Assembly (NCBI GenBank): GCA_013177895.1
Contig: JABLXV010000025.1
Location: 1 to 42,911, forward strand
DNA from: Brevinematales bacterium
Lineage (GTDB): Bacteria > Spirochaetota > Brevinematia > Brevinematales > GWF1-51-8
Direction of reading: 5' to 3'
Length of the DNA: 42,911 bases
Position 1 is the stretch's first letter. The number at the start of each line of letters is the position of its first letter. The notes beneath the pieces were generated by a model. That model was given only the letters and a program-made list of their open reading frames with translations, searched no databases and was not told the DNA's origin. The position numbers and the translations under genes are program-made. Of the stretch, positions 17,089-30,146 are shown piece by piece.

Positions 17089-17106
17089 TATTCGATGGAG
17101 GCTGAG

Positions 17107-17316
17107 ATGATTATTTTACATGGTATCTATGATAACGGGAAAATCGAATTGACCGATAAGGAAAAACCTCAGGGGAGGCAGGAAGTTCAGGTAATCCTGA
17201 ATACGGGCTCTTCCAATGAATCTCATTCTAGTGAAAATCTTCGCTCTTTTTTCAATCAGTTTCAATTCGACCTGAGCCATTTTAAATTTAACCGGGAAGA
17301 AGCGAATGAGCGATAG
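17107..17316 (+). CDS. Antitoxin of PIN toxin-antitoxin pair (DUF104-like N-terminus)
   Basis: A 69-residue protein starting MIILHGIYDNGKIELTDKE, the pattern of small antitoxins that begin with a beta strand and an IYENG-type turn. The second half is polar and ends in an acidic-to-basic stretch (FQFDLSHFKFNREEANER) suitable for wrapping a PIN toxin. GGAGG at 5 bases favours the ATG at 17107 over the upstream ATG at 17095. The gene overlaps the toxin start by 11 bases, the usual arrangement for translational coupling. It should neutralise the toxin and bind the operator at 17070-17083. Base composition is lower in GC than the neighbours, which fits transfer. Confidence 0.75.
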   Translation: MIILHGIYDNGKIELTDKEKPQGRQEVQVILNTGSSNESHSSENLRSFFNQFQFDLSHFKFNREEANER

Positions 17317-17710
17317 CTTATTCTTTTTGGATTCTTCCGTGATTATTTATTCAATCGATAAAAATCCGTCTAAAAAAGAAAGTACCCTGAAACTACTCGA
17401 ACGGAATCCGGTTATCTCCACCCAAGTGCTGAATGAAATTTCAAACGTCATGCGCCGAAAGTTCAATTTCGATTACCCCTCGATATTTCAAATAACCTCG
17501 AAAATTGTCGAAAACTCACAGCTTTCACTGATCGATTTTAAAACAATTTCATTTGCCTTTAATCTAGCCGGAACCTATTCTTTCTCCTATTATGACAGCC
17601 TGATAATCGCTTCGGCATTGGAGAATAATTGTACCATACTTTATTCCGAGGATATGCAACATCAGCAGGTAATCGAGGAAAGATTACAAATAATTAACCC
17701 TTATCTATAA
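17306..17710 (+). CDS. PIN-domain ribonuclease toxin (VapC-like)
   Basis: The 134-residue product is a PIN-domain protein: FFLDSSVIIYSID with the first metal-binding Asp (D9), the helix VISTQVLNEISNVM with a conserved Glu, and SYYDSLIIASALENNCTILYSEDMQH with the later Asp residues. VapC-type PIN toxins cut RNA (tRNA or rRNA) when freed from antitoxin. Its ATG lies inside the end of the antitoxin gene. Its stop codon TAA is partly formed by the first two bases of the right direct repeat (17709), so the cassette boundary coincides with the gene end. Confidence 0.85.
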   Translation: MSDSLFFLDSSVIIYSIDKNPSKKESTLKLLERNPVISTQVLNEISNVMRRKFNFDYPSIFQITSKIVENSQLSLIDFKTISFAFNLAGTYSFSYYDSLIIASALENNCTILYSEDMQHQQVIEERLQIINPYL

Positions 17711-17738
17711 TAATCACACGCCCAGATCGGTGGGCGCG
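17709..17738. repeat. 30-bp direct repeat, right copy, flanking the PIN cassette
   Basis: A perfect repeat of 16974-17003. This copy is the genuine 3' end of the HypC/HydE-like gene (stop codon at 17714-17716, minus strand). Removing 735 bp between the copies would restore SpoIIE and HypC/HydE as directly convergent genes sharing one junction. Confidence 0.95.
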
Positions 17739-19012
17739 CGTCCCAGTCCCCGCAGCAGGTTGAGCGTCGTCTCTATTTGGACGGGGATGCTTTCATGCAG
17801 GTGCGCGCGGTTCGGATAAATCTCGTAGCACTCCCGGAAACGTTCCGGCGTCACATTCAGCATCACCGAGTTCGCTCCCGCCATCAACCCCTTCTCGCGC
17901 GCCTGCGGGTCGGCGGTCTCGAACGATGTGGTCACGAGTATCTTCGCGTTATCGGGATCTGCCGCTCGCGCGACAGCGAGCGTATTCAGGATTTCCTCCA
18001 CCGGCGCGACAGTCCGATCCGCGAGCGGTGTGCCGGGGTGCGGGATAAACGGCCCGAAGCTGTACATCTCCGAATGCAGTTCGCGCGCGAGCAGGATATC
18101 GTTCAGCATATCGCGCTTCGTCTGCCCGGGCACTCCGATCAGTCCGCCAGTAATAATCAGGTAACCCATTTCATAGGCGGCCTTGAGGTGCGCGATGCGG
18201 GTATCGAGGGAGAATCCCGGATGGAGGGTCTGGTAAAGTTCGGGGTTGGACGTCTCGAAACGGAGCAGGACTCCCCGCGCGCCCGCGTCGTAAAGTTCCT
18301 GAAGCCCGTCGATACCGACTTCCCCCACGCTGACGAAAATCAGGCACGGGTGGCGGCGTTTGATCCCGCGGATCAGTTCAGCCAGACGCGGCGCCGGAAA
18401 CTCCGGGTCTTCGCCCGACTGTAATACCAGCGCCTGGAACCCGTGCGTCTCCACAGCCTCGTCGACAGCCGCGTATATTTCCTCATCGGTCATCCGGTAA
18501 CGCGCGAGTTTATTGTTATGGGTGGAAATCCCGCAGTAGAAACAGTTCCGCGCGCAATAGGAGGAGAATTCGATAATCCCGTGCACGCAGCAGGAGTTCC
18601 CGAGGTGCTTCCGCCGCAGGAAGTTCGCTGTCTTATACAGCATCTCGCGTTCGTGCTCGTTCTCTAGGGTCAGAAGGTGATAAAGTTCGTTGTCCGACAA
18701 CGCGCGGGATTCGGCGGCCTTATCGAGTATCCGCAGGGTCTTAGTATTTACCCCGCGGTCTTCCATATCCAGCCGCGAGAGCCGTAAATCCATCTCCTGA
18801 AGCTCGAAAAACGTTTCCTTCCAGACCGACAGGATGGAACGGGCTTCCTGTTCGGGAAGCGCCTGTATCACAAATCCGCCCTGCGCGTAAATAAAATCGC
18901 CGATACGCAGGCCGGGCAGTTCGTTAATCGCGCGTTTTTTCTCGCCGAAGTAATCGACCGTCACGTAACGGTCGTCCATCGCCTCGACCCTTCCGGGTAT
19001 GGCATAGCACAT
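17714..19012 (-). CDS. HypC-like chaperone domain fused to HydE-like radical SAM enzyme
   Basis: The start is set at 19012 because MCYAIPGRV is the classic HypC N-terminus, in which Cys2 carries the Fe(CN)2CO unit, and GGAGGTG lies just upstream. Residues 1-65 match the HypC/HupF fold (VTVDYFGEKKRAINELPGLRIGDFIYAQGGFVIQAL). After a helical linker, residues 130-432 are a radical SAM enzyme of the BioB/HydE/PylB group: the cluster motif C153-x3-C157-x2-C160 (CARNCFYC), LQSGEDPEF, LRFETSNPELYQTLHP and GGLIGVPGQT. HydE works in [FeFe] hydrogenase H-cluster assembly, whereas HypC serves [NiFe] enzymes. This fusion sits at the end of a [NiFe] operon, so a role in [NiFe] cofactor maturation is inferred. 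Function is not proven. Confidence 0.85.
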   Translation of the reverse strand: MCYAIPGRVEAMDDRYVTVDYFGEKKRAINELPGLRIGDFIYAQGGFVIQALPEQEARSILSVWKETFFELQEMDLRLSRLDMEDRGVNTKTLRILDKAAESRALSDNELYHLLTLENEHEREMLYKTANFLRRKHLGNSCCVHGIIEFSSYCARNCFYCGISTHNNKLARYRMTDEEIYAAVDEAVETHGFQALVLQSGEDPEFPAPRLAELIRGIKRRHPCLIFVSVGEVGIDGLQELYDAGARGVLLRFETSNPELYQTLHPGFSLDTRIAHLKAAYEMGYLIITGGLIGVPGQTKRDMLNDILLARELHSEMYSFGPFIPHPGTPLADRTVAPVEEILNTLAVARAADPDNAKILVTTSFETADPQAREKGLMAGANSVMLNVTPERFRECYEIYPNRAHLHESIPVQIETTLNLLRGLGRAPTDLGV

Positions 19013-19041
19013 CTTCACCTCCGCATACAAATGTACTATTT

Positions 19042-19096: not shown

Positions 19097-19573
19097 TTAC
19101 TCCGAAACAAATCCGGTAATCAGCGCGATTATTTCATCGGCGGCCGCGATTACTTCCGGGGAAATCACCTCGCCGAAGCCGAGGAACTTCGCCTGTATCC
19201 CGAGGAAGCGTACTTCGCTGCCGGTATCCTGCCGGAGTATGGATGTGATTACGGGTAACGGGAAGGAGTGGGTGCTGAGCGGAGTTTGCGGAATAGCGCT
19301 GTCCGGGATGAAACGCGCCTCGCCGGGCACGCCGCCAAAATCCGCCGCGTCGATAATAATTGTCCGCGCAGGACGGCGCTCGACCGCGTCGGTAATAATA
19401 TCCTCGGGACGGTCTCCCGCGTCAAGGAGAATGAACCCTTTGGGGAGACCCGTCAGTTTCGACGCGATATACGGCCCGACTCCATCGTCGCCCCTCAGCG
19501 AATTTCCGATGGTAATAATCAGGAGCGGATAGCCCCGCGCTTTAAAGTATCCTGTAATACCGCTATCTAACAA
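19097..19573 (-). CDS. Hydrogenase maturation protease (HycI/HoxW family)
   Basis: The 158-residue protein has the family signature IGNSLRGDDGVGPYIASKL (the Asp that binds nickel), a second metal Asp in IIDAADFGG, and STHSFPLPVI with the conserved His. These endopeptidases remove the C-terminal extension of the large subunit after nickel insertion. The substrate HydA is encoded immediately upstream and carries a removable tail after its final DPCxxCxxH. The frame begins with a TTG at 19573 that overlaps the end of hydA by 11 bases; there is no in-frame ATG earlier than the conserved core, so TTG is accepted with caution. The N-terminus is about 13 residues longer than usual. Confidence 0.88.
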   Translation of the reverse strand: MLDSGITGYFKARGYPLLIITIGNSLRGDDGVGPYIASKLTGLPKGFILLDAGDRPEDIITDAVERRPARTIIIDAADFGGVPGEARFIPDSAIPQTPLSTHSFPLPVITSILRQDTGSEVRFLGIQAKFLGFGEVISPEVIAAADEIIALITGFVSE

Positions 19574-20885
19574 ACTTAACGTCCAGGAAATGCGCCGAAC
19601 AGGAGATACACGGGTCGTAAGCGCGCACGAGCATTTCCAGGGCGAGGGTTATTTCCTCTTCCGTCTTATCGAGAATTTCCGGCACCAGCTTCTTCATATC
19701 GTGCTCGATATTGTTACAGTTCTGGCCGGTAGGAATAATGCAGTTCGCATTAACGATGATGCCCTTGTCATCCACCTCATACTGATGGAACAGCAGTCCG
19801 CGGGGAACTTCTACCGCGCCGACGCCGATGCCGGCCTTCACCTTGATACGCTTCTGCTCGTTCAGCCCGACGACAATAGCTTCCGTATGGTCGACGCCCT
19901 TCTCCTTAAAGCTTTTGACGATATCGATGGCCTCGTACAGGGAATGCACGCACTCGATAAGCTGTGCTGCCGTATTGAGGTAGGGGTTAGTGATCTTCGG
20001 TTTCATGCCGACCGCCGCCGCGATCTCCTTGGCTTCCTTGCGAAGTTTGTCATAGTTCAGGTTGAAACGCGCGAGCGCGCCGACCGCGTAAGATTCGCGG
20101 CTGAGCTTGGTATGCTTCGCGGAGGAATGCGGTACGATAAATTCGTTCGTTATTTTCTTATAGTCCTTTTTGTTCATCCGCACGCCGTCGGTAGACCCGA
20201 CGTCCCCCATCAGGAGCGGATATTCGGCGTCGTCGGAAACGAGCGCAACATATTCGGTATCGCGCTGAAGTTCGGGGAACTTCAGGCTCGCGGCAAGTTC
20301 GGCGGTCGCGTTCAAATCGGGAACCATCCCCGTCAGATAGGCCAGCATCGCGTCGAGAGCCTTCTCGTCGGGGAGCTTCGTCCATCCGCCCACGATACTG
20401 GATATCGGGTGAATATGCCTTCCCGCGAGAATGTCGCAGACGTCGTTACATGTCTTCTTCATGCGCAGGGCGCGGCGGACGACTTTATTATGCGAATCGA
20501 TGAGCGGTACGAAACTCTTGACGCCGAGCAGATCGGGGGCGACTAAGAGATAGATATGCAGGAGATGACTGTCGAGGTTCTCCATATGGAGGAGGAGTTT
20601 GCGGAGACGGATCGTCTGATCGCTGGGCTTGAACCCGATCGCGTCCTCGGCTGCCTGTATCGACGCGAGACTATGCCCGCACGCGCAGATACCGCAGATA
20701 CGCGATGTGACATGCTGCGCCTCGAATATCGAACGGCCGCGGAGCATACCCTCGAAGAAGCGCGGGCTTTCCACTATCTCGAGCTTGCAGTCCTCGAGTA
20801 CCCCGTCGTTCACATTCACCACGATATTGCCGTGACCCTCTACGCGGGTCAAGTATTCCACATTGACCTTTATATTTCTTCCCAT
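19563..20885 (-). CDS. hydA: [NiFe] hydrogenase large subunit, group 3b-like (alpha)
   Basis: The 440-residue subunit holds the Ni-Fe active site. The L1 motif RICGICACGHS supplies C64 and C67, and the L2 motif DPCISCSAH supplies C426 and C429. Eight residues after H432 (FLDVKFVR) form the extension to be cut by the adjacent protease. Absence of a signal peptide and the partner set (FAD, 2Fe-2S and 4Fe-4S subunits) point to a cytoplasmic bidirectional NAD(P)-linked enzyme of group 3b, the sulfhydrogenase type. The ATG at 20885 overlaps the hydD stop as TAATG, with GGGAG 8 bases upstream, so the subunits are translationally coupled. Confidence 0.92.
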   Translation of the reverse strand: MGRNIKVNVEYLTRVEGHGNIVVNVNDGVLEDCKLEIVESPRFFEGMLRGRSIFEAQHVTSRICGICACGHSLASIQAAEDAIGFKPSDQTIRLRKLLLHMENLDSHLLHIYLLVAPDLLGVKSFVPLIDSHNKVVRRALRMKKTCNDVCDILAGRHIHPISSIVGGWTKLPDEKALDAMLAYLTGMVPDLNATAELAASLKFPELQRDTEYVALVSDDAEYPLLMGDVGSTDGVRMNKKDYKKITNEFIVPHSSAKHTKLSRESYAVGALARFNLNYDKLRKEAKEIAAAVGMKPKITNPYLNTAAQLIECVHSLYEAIDIVKSFKEKGVDHTEAIVVGLNEQKRIKVKAGIGVGAVEVPRGLLFHQYEVDDKGIIVNANCIIPTGQNCNNIEHDMKKLVPEILDKTEEEITLALEMLVRAYDPCISCSAHFLDVKFVR

Positions 20886-21625
20886 TATTTGATCTCCCGG
20901 CATTTATTATACATGTTCATCTTGTTCATAATCAGGTCGACCGTGATATCATACTTCTCCAGCACCGCCTTGAACCCGTTCTCGTTGGGATTGCTGACCA
21001 TACCGCGGCACCCGTAACAGATGTTTCCGTTATTAACGCACCACGAGTTGCATCCCGCGCGGGTAATCGGCCCGGCGCATGAGAGTCCCCGCTCATACAT
21101 GCAGATATTCTCATTGAGTTTGCATTCGATACATACCGAACTGTCGGGCACATGATACGGAAGCCCCGCGAGCGCGGCTTTCAGGACACGGATAAATTCC
21201 GGCGGATAGATCGGACAGCCGTTCACAAAGTAATCGACGTTCACTACCTGCGGAACCGAGCGGGTGGGGATAGTATCGAAGAACTCCGCCTTTTCCTGGT
21301 AAACATACTGCCGGACATCTTTCAGTTCGAAATTATTCTTCATCCCGTTAACGCCGCCGATTGTAGCGCATGAGCCGTATGCGATCAGCACTTTGGAACG
21401 CGCGCGAATCTCCTTGATCCGCTCTACCGCGTGATTGGTGGTAATACTCCCTTCTATTATCGCGATATCGAAACTCTGGTTCCATTTTTCAGACATGACC
21501 TCGCGGAATTCCACCACATCGATTACTTCGAGAATATCTAAAAGGGCTTCGCCCAGGTTGGCAACCTGTAACTGACATCCCTCACAGCAGGCAAAATCAA
21601 AAAATGCGACTTTAGGTTTTGTCAT
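20885..21625 (-). CDS. hydD: [NiFe] hydrogenase small subunit, group 3b-like (delta)
   Basis: The 246-residue protein starts MTKPKVAFFDFACCEGCQLQ, in which the CxxC at 14-17 binds the proximal [4Fe-4S] cluster. YGSCATIGGVNG and NGCPIYPPEFI are the later proximal-cluster ligands. CIECKLNENICMYERGLSCAGPITRAGCNSWC and CYGCRG hold the other clusters. This is the 20-kDa-type small subunit of group 3 enzymes, lacking a Tat signal. The start at 21625 has AGGGGG upstream and overlaps the hydG stop as TAATG. It passes electrons from HydA to HydG and HydB. Confidence 0.9.
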   Translation of the reverse strand: MTKPKVAFFDFACCEGCQLQVANLGEALLDILEVIDVVEFREVMSEKWNQSFDIAIIEGSITTNHAVERIKEIRARSKVLIAYGSCATIGGVNGMKNNFELKDVRQYVYQEKAEFFDTIPTRSVPQVVNVDYFVNGCPIYPPEFIRVLKAALAGLPYHVPDSSVCIECKLNENICMYERGLSCAGPITRAGCNSWCVNNGNICYGCRGMVSNPNENGFKAVLEKYDITVDLIMNKMNMYNKCREIK

Positions 21626-22467
21626 TAGATTGCCCCCTTCAAGTCTTTTATCCGGTCGTAAAAGAACACCGGACCGTCCTGACAACAGTAAATATTATGT
21701 ATCTGGCAATGCCCGCATTTGCCGAGGCCGCATTTCATGTGACGCTCGAGCGAGACCAATATCCGGTGATCCGGGATATTCTTGCCGGTCAATTCCCTAA
21801 TCACAAACTTATACATCACGGGCGGGCCGACTACTACGGCGAACGTATTCTCCGGGTCGAGATCGACTCCGGGGATCAGCGACGTAATCAGACCGACGTT
21901 GCCCTTCCAGTCGGGCGCGCCGCGGTCGACCGTGCAGCTGAAGTTAATATCGATACGTTTCTGCCAGTTCTCGATCTCGTCGCCGAACAGCATATTGAGC
22001 GGGGTCTTACATCCCAAAAGGATGTTGACCTTTCCGAAATCGCGGCGGTTGTCGATGACATAATTGATCAGCGAACGCAGCGGGGCGATACCCAACCCGC
22101 CCGCGACCAGCATCAGGTCGTTGCCCTCGAACAACTGCACCGGGAAACCTACCCCGAATGGGCCGCGTATCCCTACATCGTCGCCGGCTTCGAGCTTATG
22201 CATAGCGTTGGTAAAACGCCCGTCGCCGACCGCGCGCACGCAGAGTTCGAACGACCCCCGCTTGGTCGGCGAGGAACAGATCGAGATAGGCGCCTCGCCC
22301 ACCCCGAATATCGATACTTCGGCGAACTGCCCCGGTTCGTAATCGAGGCTCTCGCCGTTCTGGAGCGCGATATCGAACAGTTTCTCGCTGTCGGTCAGCC
22401 GCCTGACACTCAGAATTTTGGCTTCCTTTATTTTATAAGCCGAACGGTTTATACTCATCTTTTCCAT
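21625..22467 (-). CDS. hydG: Hydrogenase FAD/NAD(P)-binding subunit (gamma)
   Basis: The 280-residue protein is a ferredoxin-reductase-like flavoprotein. Residues 50-100 form the FAD domain (YEPGQFAEVSIFGVGEAPISICSSP, GRFTNAMHKLEAGDDVGIRGPFG). The NAD(P) domain includes LMLVAGGLGIAPLRSLI. Near the C-terminus, CGLGKCGHCQIHNIYCCQDGPVF supplies four cysteines for a [2Fe-2S] cluster. It carries the site where NAD(P)(H) exchanges electrons with the hydrogenase. The ATG at 22467 shares a base with the hydB stop (TGATG), and GGAG lies 8 bases upstream. This HydG is the sulfhydrogenase gamma subunit, not the radical SAM HydG of [FeFe] enzymes. Confidence 0.9.
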   Translation of the reverse strand: MEKMSINRSAYKIKEAKILSVRRLTDSEKLFDIALQNGESLDYEPGQFAEVSIFGVGEAPISICSSPTKRGSFELCVRAVGDGRFTNAMHKLEAGDDVGIRGPFGVGFPVQLFEGNDLMLVAGGLGIAPLRSLINYVIDNRRDFGKVNILLGCKTPLNMLFGDEIENWQKRIDINFSCTVDRGAPDWKGNVGLITSLIPGVDLDPENTFAVVVGPPVMYKFVIRELTGKNIPDHRILVSLERHMKCGLGKCGHCQIHNIYCCQDGPVFFYDRIKDLKGAI

Positions 22468-23501
22468 CACTTGTACTCCTTCGCAAGAGATTTGATGGTA
22501 TCTTTCAGGTTGATTTTAGCCATACATACGCGGGTGCATCTGCCGCATCCGGTGCAGAAAAATTTACCGTAACGCTCCACCGGGTAACGGAATTTTCTAT
22601 TGAAACGGTGACGCTTGCGGTCTTTCCGCTGTGAACGGAAGCTTTCGCCGCCCGCCACCTTCGCGAACGGTTCGTTCTGGCAGGAGTCCCAGACGCGGAT
22701 ACGCTTTCCCGTTTTCGCGCCGAGATCCGGGTCGTCGTAGACATCGAAGCAGTAACATGTCGGGCATACGTTGGTGCAGTTCCCGCATGAGATACAGCGT
22801 TCGCCCAGATCGTCCCATACCGGACTGTCGAATCCCTTCTTAAAAAGCTCGGGTATCATGTTTTTATCGACATCGACTTCGTTCTTAAAAATTTCCTTCT
22901 TCTTATTCCGGAGGTCTTCGAGCGCGTTCATATGCTCGATCGTCGCTTCCTCGTAAACCCCGGTCTTGTCCAATAATTCTTCGCCGAGCTGGGTATTCAC
23001 ATGAATGAAGAAATAATCGCCGAGGTCGGTGAAAAACATATCGTAGCCGCCTTTGGGAATATGGTTCCCCATCAGCGCGCAGCTCGCATGTTCGTCACAG
23101 TACTCGTTGCACTCGATCCCGATAATCGCGATCTTGTTCTTGCGGATGAGGTAGTTCAGGTCTTTCGGGCGATCGGAGAAAACAATATTCAGACACTGTA
23201 CACCTGCAAGATCACAGGTATGCACACCGAACAAGACGATTTTTTCCACTTCAGCCACCGCCCGCATTTTCTGGCCTTCACGGGTATCGTACTCGAGAAG
23301 GGTTTCATGCTGGGGCATAAAATACTTTTTCGGCGGAAGAATGGTGGGAATGTACCGGAGCGAAATCTCCTTCGCGGACTTCACCTCTTCAAACGCGAAA
23401 TGTGTCGGATCTTTGGCAACAGGTGCCATTACCTTTTCCATCGCGGCAAGTTTCGAGATAAAATCGTTGAGATGAGATTTGCGAAGTATGGCGTTTTGCA
23501 T
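22467..23501 (-). CDS. hydB: Hydrogenase 4Fe-4S dicluster subunit (beta)
   Basis: The 344-residue protein ends in two ferredoxin-type motifs: CISCGNCTNVCPTCYC around residue 240 and CTGCGRCTRVC around residue 320. The first half matches the sulfhydrogenase beta subunit, including EKIVLFGVHTCDLAG and IIGIECNEYCDEHASC. It is the first gene of the hydBGDA operon, the order known from archaeal sulfhydrogenases. It should link the small subunit to the flavin subunit or to ferredoxin, and in some species reduces elemental sulfur. The leader of 230 bp contains a Rex-like site and two palindromic elements. Confidence 0.9.
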   Translation of the reverse strand: MQNAILRKSHLNDFISKLAAMEKVMAPVAKDPTHFAFEEVKSAKEISLRYIPTILPPKKYFMPQHETLLEYDTREGQKMRAVAEVEKIVLFGVHTCDLAGVQCLNIVFSDRPKDLNYLIRKNKIAIIGIECNEYCDEHASCALMGNHIPKGGYDMFFTDLGDYFFIHVNTQLGEELLDKTGVYEEATIEHMNALEDLRNKKKEIFKNEVDVDKNMIPELFKKGFDSPVWDDLGERCISCGNCTNVCPTCYCFDVYDDPDLGAKTGKRIRVWDSCQNEPFAKVAGGESFRSQRKDRKRHRFNRKFRYPVERYGKFFCTGCGRCTRVCMAKINLKDTIKSLAKEYK

Positions 23502-26241: not shown

Positions 26242-27621
26242 CTATTTCTTCTTATTCCTGATATATTCGTCGATCGCCTTCGCGGCGGTACGCGCCGCGC
26301 CCATCGCGAGGATCACTGTCGCCGATCCGGACACCGCGTCCCCCCCGGCATAGACTCCCTCGCGGGTCGTCTTCCCGGTCGTCTCGTCGATAATCAGCGC
26401 CTTCCACTTGTTGATCTCGATACCCGGCGTCGTCTGGGATATCAACGGATTGGGGCTTGTCCCGATAGCGATCACCACCGTGTCGACCCCGATCTCGTAC
26501 TCGGAGCCCTTGACCGGCACGGGACGCCGTCTGCCGGAATCGTCCGGCTCGCCCAGTTCCATCCGAATGCACCGGATCGCGCGCACCCATCCCTTATCGT
26601 CGCCGAGGATTTCGGTGGGGTTGGTCAGCATATGGAACTCGATCCCCTCCTCCTGAGCGTGATGTACTTCCTCGACGCGGGCGGGGAGCTCCTTCTCCGA
26701 ACGGCGGTACACGATATAGGTCATCGCGCCGAGACGTTTCGCGGTACGCGCCGCGTCCATCGCGACATTCCCGCCGCCGACCACCGCGACCCGTTTCCCG
26801 ACACGTATCGGGGTGTCGAAACTGTCGTCGTACGCCCCCATCAGGTTGCTGCGCGTCAGAAACTCGTTCGCGGAATAAACCCCGTTCAAATCCTCGCCGG
26901 GGATATTCATAAACATCGGCAGCCCCGCGCCGCTCCCGATAAACACCGCCTCGAACCCTTCCTCGTTCATCAGCTGATCGATCGTAACCGTTCGCCCGAT
27001 GATCACATTGGTCTCGAATTTCACTCCGAGCGTCTTGAGGTTCTCGATCTCGTACTCCACTACCGTGTTCGGGAGACGAAATTCCGGGATACCGTAAACC
27101 AGCACCCCGCCGGTCTTATGCAGCGCCTCGAAAACAGTGATATCGTACCCGAGTTTCGCGAGGTCGCCCGCGCAGGTCAATCCCGCGGGGCCGCTCCCGA
27201 TTACCGCGACCTTATGCTGATTGGGCTTCGCCGGATCGGCGAGCTTGTACTTATTATCCCGTGTCCAGTCGCCGACAAACCGTTCGAGTTTCCCGATAGC
27301 GACCGCCTCGCCCTTCTTGCCGAGCACGCAAAGTTCCTCGCACTGGGTCTCCTGCGGGCAGACGCGTCCGCATACGGCGGGCAGCGCGCTGTCCTCGGCG
27401 ATCTTCCTCGACGCGAGATCGTACTCCTTGTTCCGCAGGTGCAGGATAAACTCCGGTATCTTGATAGCCACCGGGCATCCGTCCACACACGGGCGGGTCT
27501 TGCACTGGAGGCAGCGGCTCGCCTCCTCGATCATCTGCTCCTCGGTATATCCGAGGCATACTTCGTTGAAATTTTTATTTCTTTCATCGGGCGCCTGTTC
27601 CCCGATAGGCGTTCGTTTCAT
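26242..27621 (-). CDS. nfnB: NfnB: electron-bifurcating transhydrogenase large subunit (GltD-like)
   Basis: The 459-residue flavoprotein belongs to the glutamate synthase small-chain family. Two [4Fe-4S] motifs lie at the N-terminus (CLQCKTRPCVDGCP and CGRVCPQETQCEELC). An FAD site follows (VAVIGSGPAGLTCAGDLAKLG), then an NADPH site (VAVVGGGNVAMDAARTAKRLG) and the closing FAD motif GVYAGGDAVSGSATVILAMGAAR. On its own it could be read as a GltA-like subunit, but the adjacent upstream gene is NfnA, and the pair forms the NADH-dependent ferredoxin:NADP+ oxidoreductase. No large glutamate synthase subunit is present. The ATG at 27621 follows the nfnA stop with one base between them, so the genes are coupled. 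Confidence 0.88.
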   Translation of the reverse strand: MKRTPIGEQAPDERNKNFNEVCLGYTEEQMIEEASRCLQCKTRPCVDGCPVAIKIPEFILHLRNKEYDLASRKIAEDSALPAVCGRVCPQETQCEELCVLGKKGEAVAIGKLERFVGDWTRDNKYKLADPAKPNQHKVAVIGSGPAGLTCAGDLAKLGYDITVFEALHKTGGVLVYGIPEFRLPNTVVEYEIENLKTLGVKFETNVIIGRTVTIDQLMNEEGFEAVFIGSGAGLPMFMNIPGEDLNGVYSANEFLTRSNLMGAYDDSFDTPIRVGKRVAVVGGGNVAMDAARTAKRLGAMTYIVYRRSEKELPARVEEVHHAQEEGIEFHMLTNPTEILGDDKGWVRAIRCIRMELGEPDDSGRRRPVPVKGSEYEIGVDTVVIAIGTSPNPLISQTTPGIEINKWKALIIDETTGKTTREGVYAGGDAVSGSATVILAMGAARTAAKAIDEYIRNKKK

Positions 27622-27622
27622 G

Positions 27623-28522
27623 TTAACCAATTTTCGCCCCCTGTACGCCGCATCCGCCCGCGGGCCGGTGAGTCGCGCCTTCCGTAATTCGGAGCGCCTT
27701 CTTTCCCTCCTCGGTCTTGAACAGCGTCATTCTCCGCATCGCACCGTCGAAATCCACCAGATGCCCGTCAAACTCGGGGCCGTCCACACAGGTGAACTTC
27801 ACCTCCCCTCCGACATTGACACGGCATGCGCCGCACATCCCGGTGCCGTCCACCATAATCGTATTAAGACTCACGACAGTAGGGATATTCAGTTCCTTCG
27901 TGAGCTTCGCGGCAAACTTCATCATAATCATCGGGCCGATAATGACCGCGTGATCGTAGGACTTGCCCTGCTTCTCTACCAGGTCGCGCAGGAGATCGGT
28001 CACCAACCCGTGGAATCCGTAGGAACCGTCGTCGGTGCACACGTAAAGATTTTTCGCGGCCGCGCGCATTTCGTCCTCGAGTATGACGAGGTCTTTATTC
28101 CGCGCGCCGATAATCACGTCCGCGTCAACCCCGTTCTCCTTCAGCCACTTGACCTGGGGATACACCGGAGCGACGCCCACCCCGCCCCCGATAAAGATAA
28201 ATTTCTTCTTCTTCACCTCGTCGAGCGGCTCCTTCACAAAATCAGACGGATGCCCGAGGGGGCCTGTGAACGCGAAAAAGCTGTCGCCCTCACGGTAACC
28301 GGCCATCCGGCGCGTCGTATCCCCCACAGTCTGGAACACGATGGTAACCGAGCCGCGCTTTTTATCATAATCGCATATGGTTAACGGTATCCGCTCGCCC
28401 TTCTCGTCCGTAATCACGATCACGAACTGCCCGGGCAGGGACGCTTTCGCGACCCTCGGGGCTTCGACATCCATCAGGACGACCTGCGTTCCGAGCGTCT
28501 TTTTCTTTAATATTTTATACAT
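27623..28522 (-). CDS. nfnA: NfnA: electron-bifurcating transhydrogenase small subunit
   Basis: The 299-residue protein has an FAD-binding front half (SLPGQFVIVITDEKGERIPLTICDYD), an NAD-binding motif (FIFIGGGVGVAPVYPQVKWL) and a C-terminal [2Fe-2S] loop, GTGMCGACRVNVGGEVKFTCVDGPEFDGHLVDFD. This is the dihydroorotate-dehydrogenase electron-transfer/NfnA family. With NfnB it couples NADH and reduced ferredoxin oxidation to NADP+ reduction. The ATG at 28522 has GGAG 7 bases upstream. The leader 28523-28742 holds no gene that I can support. Confidence 0.88.
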   Translation of the reverse strand: MYKILKKKTLGTQVVLMDVEAPRVAKASLPGQFVIVITDEKGERIPLTICDYDKKRGSVTIVFQTVGDTTRRMAGYREGDSFFAFTGPLGHPSDFVKEPLDEVKKKKFIFIGGGVGVAPVYPQVKWLKENGVDADVIIGARNKDLVILEDEMRAAAKNLYVCTDDGSYGFHGLVTDLLRDLVEKQGKSYDHAVIIGPMIMMKFAAKLTKELNIPTVVSLNTIMVDGTGMCGACRVNVGGEVKFTCVDGPEFDGHLVDFDGAMRRMTLFKTEEGKKALRITEGATHRPAGGCGVQGAKIG

Positions 28523-28742
28523 ACCACTACTCCGTATAAGAATCGTTATCTGGCGTACCCGCTTAAAGATGCGGGACTATTTTTATCCCCGTATTTTATT
28601 GTTTACCCCGGGGAATTTCAAGTATTTTTTATTATATGCGCTGAAATTAGTCCGCATCCCGATTTATCGGATCAATAAAATAATGCTAAATGTAAATCAT
28701 GCTTCCCGTTTATGGAACCGCCCCTATCATGCCTGAGAAAAA

Positions 28743-28772
28743 TAAAAACAAAGCGGGGAGGGATTCCCCGCT
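28743..28772 (-). terminator. Rho-independent terminator of gdhA
   Basis: On the minus strand AGCGGGGAATCCCTCCCCGCT forms a GC-rich hairpin followed by TTGTTTTTATT, about 20 bp after the gdhA stop. It separates gdhA from the nfnAB operon. Confidence 0.85.
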
Positions 28773-28790
28773 CTGTTATCAATAAACCGG

Positions 28791-30146
<1,356 letters not shown>

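Follow-up and report, generated by a model that had tools for sequence, protein, structure and literature searches.

The window, by which we mean the whole analysed stretch of 42,911 nucleotides, carries the operon of a group 3b [NiFe] hydrogenase. Its genes lie on one strand in the order hydB-hydG(gamma)-hydD-hydA-protease-fusion and overlap or are closely spaced, and the last of them encodes a HypC domain and a HydE-like radical SAM domain in a single chain. The sequence-only reading of this DNA had placed that gene after a maturation protease and hydBGDA, and Pfam and NCBIfam assignments confirm these neighbours and their common direction. The features considered here are as follows.

22467-23501 (-): hydB, 4Fe-4S electron-transfer subunit (PF17179; NCBIfam sulfhyd_HydB)
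21625-22470 (-): hydG (gamma), FAD/NAD(P)-binding subunit, distinct from the radical SAM HydG (Pfam, NCBIfam)
20885-21685 (-): hydD, [NiFe] small subunit (PF01058; NCBIfam ShyD/HydD)
19563-20903 (-): hydA, group 3b [NiFe] large subunit (PF00374; best NCBIfam family sulfhydrogenase HydA)
19097-19573 (-): HycI-type hydrogenase maturation protease (PF01750; TIGR00072 at 103.9 bits, above the cut-off)
19018-19022 (-): ribosome-binding site GGAGG, 5 nt 5' of the ATG of the fusion (read from the sequence)
17714-19012 (-): HypC-HydE fusion, single chain of 432 aa (ORF, Pfam, NCBIfam, PDB relatives, AlphaFold)
18773-19012 (-): HypC domain of the fusion, residues 1-80, with Cys2 kept and the iron-site His replaced by Gln44 (PF01455, 42.9 bits)
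18581-18592 (-): fusion-specific C141-C142-x-H144, on the strand that precedes the radical SAM loop (80 of 80 fusions)
18533-18556 (-): radical SAM CX3CX2C motif, C153, C157 and C160 (PF04055; invariant in 80 of 80)
17714-18607 (-): HydE-like radical SAM TIM barrel with BATS domain, residues about 136-432 (Foldseek)

The large subunit has intact RICGICACGH and DPCISCSAH-FLDVKFVR motifs, keeps the Ni and Fe ligand cysteines and ends in a short C-terminal tail. The radical SAM HydG of this genome (HydG from here on) lies on another contig (C9), as does a canonical HydE (C23), and HypA and HypB follow an Ech operon on contig C45. Convergent with the fusion, at 17095-17710, are a PIN-domain toxin-like gene and a small partner gene; the fusion-bearing genomes G066 and G089 have the PIN gene in the equivalent position. 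Genes resembling NfnA and NfnB, together with a glutamate dehydrogenase gene, were identified by eye at 26242-30140, near the 3b hydrogenase. The same set recurs near the fusion in Omnitrophota (L096:13628-17422), indicating a shared NADPH-linked neighbourhood.

The fusion protein

The open reading frame of the fusion runs without interruption from the ATG at 19012 to the TGA at 17714-17716, and the MCYAIPG start and CARNCFYC motif described earlier are both present. The protein passes the Pfam cut-offs for HupF_HypC (PF01455; 42.9 bits, cut-off 28.5) and BATS (25.8 bits, cut-off 22.2) and matches Radical_SAM (PF04055) at 61 bits. Its best NCBIfam family is HydE (TIGR03956), with 248.7 bits, narrowly below the curated cut-off of 254.6; the match to HypC/HupF (TIGR00074; 37.7 bits) also stays below that family's stricter level of 48. 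The PDB relatives are Thermotoga maritima HydE (residues 101-433, E 2.8e-63) and Thermococcus kodakarensis HypC (residues 7-73, E 2.1e-7), numbered here in a 438-aa frame with a TTG start. These Pfam, NCBIfam and PDB matches support the earlier description of the 432-aa chain as a HypC fused to a HydE-like radical SAM enzyme. An AlphaFold model of the fusion, built from 78 copies, has a pLDDT of 93.1 and a pTM of 0.92, and the ten best Foldseek matches to it are all T. maritima HydE (TM (target) 0.93, rmsd 1.5), including structures of complexes with complex B.

Across 80 fusions, Cys2, A43-Q44-G45-G46, C141, C142, H144 and C153/C157/C160 are invariant, the conservation of Cys2 being partly built in by one of the two search patterns (MCY[AS]IPG). 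In alignment with the HypC structures 2z1c and 3vyr, the Gln of AQGGF, present in 80/80 fusions as Gln44, falls on the His of VHTGF. This iron-site histidine (His51 in Escherichia coli, where it is required; PMC12134894) is kept in all eight stand-alone HypC proteins of HypD-bearing Spirochaetota that were compared. Canonical HydE proteins mostly have V-[Y/F]-x-R at the position of the C-C-x-H of the fusion, with no Cys and with Arg in place of His. The fusion has thus lost the iron-site histidine of HypC and has gained potential new ligands in the barrel, directly ahead of the radical SAM loop. Since the residue required in E. coli is a glutamine here, the HypC domain is no plain copy of HypC. 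Both halves of the fusion have a dN/dS of 0.05-0.15, as expected under purifying selection.

Occurrence and neighbourhood of the fusion

Among 296 Spirochaetota genomes, six encode the fusion in one frame. They belong to the genus of the window, to another family of the same order and to two further families, and each has a second, canonical HydE-like match with 37-39% identity. When 84,980 species genomes were scanned with patterns that lie within the HypC domain and would miss unfused relatives of the radical SAM part, 160 fusion loci were confirmed. Of these loci, 80 were retrieved, mainly from metagenome-assembled genomes (MAGs). Most are from Omnitrophota, followed by Margulisbacteria/Saganbacteria/WOR-1, Elusimicrobia, Brevinematales, Riflebacteria and Auribacterota, with single records titled WOR-3, Victivallis and Deltaproteobacteria. 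Each of these 80 loci encodes a single chain in one frame, two being cut by contig ends. A sequencing or assembly error joining two genes, which the sequence-only reading had named as a possible origin, is thus ruled out by the six Spirochaetota genomes, the 80 loci and the purifying selection. An unrooted tree of the radical SAM part puts the 24 fusions that it includes on one side of a single branch and the 17 HydE proteins on the other (100/100), consistent with a single origin of the fusion clade.

The survey that the earlier reading had called for finds the 3b large subunit in 40 of the 80 loci, while Ech subunits occur in about 15. The [NiFe] ligand motifs are intact in 53 of 54 loci, the remaining one looking cut at its N-terminus, and in all 35 further large-subunit matches. 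In L116, a 610-aa ORF joins the 3b large subunit in frame with the maturation protease, which may be a natural fusion or an assembly error. HypA is matched in 28/80 loci, and an 81-aa HypA-like protein occurs in 11 more. Such mini-HypA proteins of about 80 aa, encoded between the protease and the fusion (L096:9663-9908, L084:9756-9998 and similar loci), match just the first 70 positions of HypA and have no zinc ribbon.

The typical gene order is hydB-hydG(gamma)-hydD-hydA-protease-HypA-fusion-(Rex)-HydG. HydG lies within 850 nt of the fusion and on the same strand in 29 of the 80 loci (24 downstream, 5 upstream). In L085, L087, L088, L091, L093 and L094 it overlaps the end of the fusion by 4 or 8 nt. 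This linkage is not universal, as the separate contigs in the genome of the window show. HydG is the element that the sequence-only reading lacked: it adjoins the fusion in many genomes and is present in 48 of the 50 fusion genomes of our collection. A Rex-like redox repressor (Put_DNA-bind_N and CoA_binding) is encoded near the fusion in 24 loci (e.g., L096:11389-12021), often between the fusion and HydG. One HydG subtype of about 490-500 aa (L078:7307-8800; also L107, L108, L113, L128, L135, L139, L144, L146 and L149) has the second cysteine of its C-terminal cluster shifted (CTAGYRC versus CTACYR). A regular-expression search had suggested that these proteins lack the C-x2-C-x22-C cluster; the alignment shows that the three cysteines are kept and one is shifted.

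Maturation genes in fusion-bearing genomes

HypD was found in none of the 50 fusion genomes, and neither was a full-length HypF scoring above the cut-off, the HypF matches that did score being short pieces such as lone acylphosphatases. The same genomes encode a [NiFe] large subunit in 49 cases and HydG above the cut-off in 48. In the Spirochaetota, HypD occurs in 65 of 296 genomes and the fusion in six, with no overlap; these six also have no full-length HypF and no HypC besides the fusion. A 3b large subunit is present in four of them (G000, G066, G089 and G027) and an Ech-type large subunit in five (G000, G089, G037, G027 and G002). We considered whether the 363-385-aa large subunits of G037 and G002 are relatives of complex I and rejected this, as they are Ech-type with both ligand motifs. 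A lone HypF_C_2 protein without the other HypF domains is encoded in G000 (C28, 13584-14687; L059:1474-3051) and in G066, G089 and G037.

We also considered whether HypD was missed because MAGs are incomplete. This is ruled out by the recovery of [NiFe] large subunits and HydG in 49 and 48 of the 50 genomes that yielded no HypD. HypD was recovered by this search from 65 of the 296 Spirochaetota genomes, control genomes (E. coli and others) were positive for HypD and HypF as expected, and two of the genomes without HypD are titled chromosome or 'curated complete'. These two (G331, locus L128, and G323, locus L118) have the fusion, a [NiFe] hydrogenase and HydG, and no HypD, HypF or [FeFe] hydrogenase was found in either. 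A 6.3-Mb Riflebacteria genome (G327; L124 and L162) likewise has the fusion but no HypD; among its several [NiFe] enzymes is a full-length match whose motifs, RICGVCPIDH and DPCLACAIH, are unlike those of the 3b and Ech types.

An [FeFe] hydrogenase is present in 19 of the 50 fusion genomes and absent from 31. HydG occurs in 30 of these 31, the exception (G333) being a 0.9-Mb MAG in which the contig ends soon after the fusion. A separate HydE-like gene, as seen in the HydG scan, accompanies the [FeFe] hydrogenase in 15 of 19 genomes, versus 2-3 of the 31 without that enzyme.

A candidate route to the [NiFe] iron unit

In [FeFe] hydrogenase maturation, HydG cleaves tyrosine into CO and CN- and assembles [Fe(Cys)(CO)2(CN)]. 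It transfers this complex directly to HydE, which adenosylates it and, ahead of dimerisation, reduces it to Fe(I) (PMC11736057). In [NiFe] maturation, the HypCD scaffold needs Cys2 and His51 of HypC and Cys41 of HypD, and HypC alone is thought to bring the Fe unit on Cys2 to the large subunit (PMC12134894, PMC11565642). A 2025 review considers none of the six Hyp proteins dispensable and the anaerobic source of CO unresolved (PMC12134894). HydEFG have been described as serving [FeFe] hydrogenases only, and in Clostridium thermocellum Ech is encoded beside hypABFCDE (PMC4355364).

The gene content of the fusion genomes makes it probable, in our view, that their [NiFe] enzymes are matured independently of HypD and HypF by the fusion, with HydG as the source of ligands; we hold the order of the steps below with less confidence than the route as a whole. 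Most likely, the fusion replaces the iron branch of the Hyp pathway and is not a helper of it. HydG would begin by splitting tyrosine and building an Fe-CO-CN synthon, an activity established for the HydG family and suggested for fusion genomes by the presence of the gene and its adjacency to the fusion. By analogy with the passage from HydG to HydE in [FeFe] maturation, the synthon may then enter the HydE-like barrel. There, a radical SAM reaction would free or reduce the iron complex, and the mononuclear unit would move to Cys2 of the attached HypC domain instead of dimerising towards an H-cluster. The C-C-x-H found only in the fusion perhaps substitutes for Cys41 of HypD and His51 of HypC. 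The HypC domain would next dock on the apo large subunit and hand over the Fe unit, after which HypA and HypB would insert Ni and the HycI protease would close the site. The roles of HypC, HypA, HypB and HycI in delivery, Ni insertion and site closure are established, and genes for HypA, HypB and a HycI-type protease are present in the genome of the window. Covalent joining of the two domains would save a labile complex a diffusion step and would steer the mononuclear unit to [NiFe] enzymes, and not a dimer to HydF.

The product of HydG carries two CO and one CN, versus one CO and two CN in the [NiFe] site, so that an exchange or a second supply of CN is needed. HydG might turn over a second time, ligands might be exchanged within the barrel, cyanide might come from elsewhere, or the site itself might be non-standard. 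This misfit would suit a route in which HydG and the fusion provide only CO (or a redox or assembly step) and cyanide comes from carbamoyl phosphate via an unrecognised, diverged HypE/HypF-like pair, as would the lone 525-aa HypF_C_2 carbamoyltransferase-like protein of Brevinematales genomes. However, G027 and G002 lack the HypF_C protein, a match of that strength occurs in just one of the 50 genomes (G296), and HypD, which accepts the cyanide from HypE in the known pathway, occurs in none of them. We reject the lone protein as a general cyanide source, its distribution being too narrow, and regard the carbamoyl-phosphate route overall as unlikely. To our knowledge, Fe(CO)(CN)2 is taken to be universal in [NiFe] hydrogenases. 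We consider a non-standard iron site because of the 2:1 ratio of CO to CN in the HydG product: the enzymes of fusion lineages might hold Fe(CO)2(CN) or a mixed set in its place, which we think doubtful. If they did, the fusion would load an organometallic cofactor of another kind.

The remaining explanations assign the fusion to a known pathway or to none. Its HydE-like domain and HydG partner would suit a HydE that serves the [FeFe] hydrogenase with a HypC-like arm for taking up or passing on H-cluster precursors, but the fusion lies in [NiFe] operons, the [FeFe] hydrogenase is missing from 31 of 50 genomes, and most genomes that have it own a separate HydE-like gene. With that enzyme in just 19/50 genomes, a role in [FeFe] maturation is largely refuted and seems to us barely credible. 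An association mainly with [FeFe] HydF/HydG sets, named earlier as a counter-argument to a [NiFe] role, thus holds for HydG (48/50) but mostly not for the hydrogenase itself. The sequence-only reading had linked the radical SAM step to the HypC-carried iron unit of [NiFe] enzymes, and this link stands, given the 3b and Ech operons and the frequent absence of [FeFe] hydrogenase. Its further suggestion, that the step modifies an Fe(CN)2CO unit supplied by the usual HypCDEF pathway, fits the HypC domain and the [NiFe] operon but does not survive the gene counts: because HypD and full-length HypF are absent and the fusion is the sole HypC in six genomes, such a step finds no normal Fe(CN)2CO on HypCD to act upon, and an extra step on that pathway is extremely improbable. 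It might also be supposed that these [NiFe] enzymes lack CO and CN ligands or are inactive, the fusion being a relic or having another function, and in favour of this, neither expression nor activity data turned up for these uncultured lineages. Yet all Ni and Fe ligand cysteines and the protease are kept, as are HypA and HypB in the genome of the window, and both fusion halves are under purifying selection, which makes this reading very unlikely.

Maturation by the fusion and HydG would resemble the HypCDEF iron branch in its [NiFe] target, its HypC-type carrier with Cys2, the HypA/HypB nickel branch and the protease. Unlike in that branch, HypD and full-length HypF are missing (50 genomes), HydG is present, His51 is replaced by Gln, and HypC is covalently joined to a radical SAM enzyme. 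With HydE/HydG maturation of [FeFe] hydrogenases it shares the HydE-like barrel, the CX3CX2C motif and a HydG partner that is expected to make the Fe-CO-CN synthon. In contrast to HydE, the fusion is associated with [NiFe] operons and mostly with genomes that have no [FeFe] hydrogenase, forms a separate clade (100/100), has C-C-x-H for V-[YF]-x-R and carries an N-terminal HypC domain. HypX, which forms CO for O2-tolerant [NiFe] hydrogenases, is likewise an additional protein that provides the [NiFe] iron with a diatomic ligand, but it works with HypCDEF and from formyl-tetrahydrofolate (PMC12134894), whereas the fusion lineages have no HypD or HypF and the proposed source is tyrosine. HmdB, a radical SAM relative that serves the synthesis of the [Fe] hydrogenase cofactor, has no HypC domain and makes another cofactor; the fusion matches its family with 66.6 bits against a cut-off of 320.9. 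The parts of the fusion thus belong to known families, and as a maturation route it would be new. We found no description of the fusion or of this route in the open-access literature (PMC, preprints excluded).

If this reading is correct, the iron unit of [NiFe] hydrogenases would be made by two different routes, the second with a concrete and testable source of CO for the site, and the [FeFe] and [NiFe] maturation systems could exchange parts. It would also account for HydG in genomes without [FeFe] hydrogenase, and HydG would be unsafe as a genomic marker of that enzyme. The Saganbacteria, which have been reported with 3b [NiFe] and without [FeFe] hydrogenase in a study whose main text is silent on HypC, HypD and HydG (PMC6349859), would fit this exactly.
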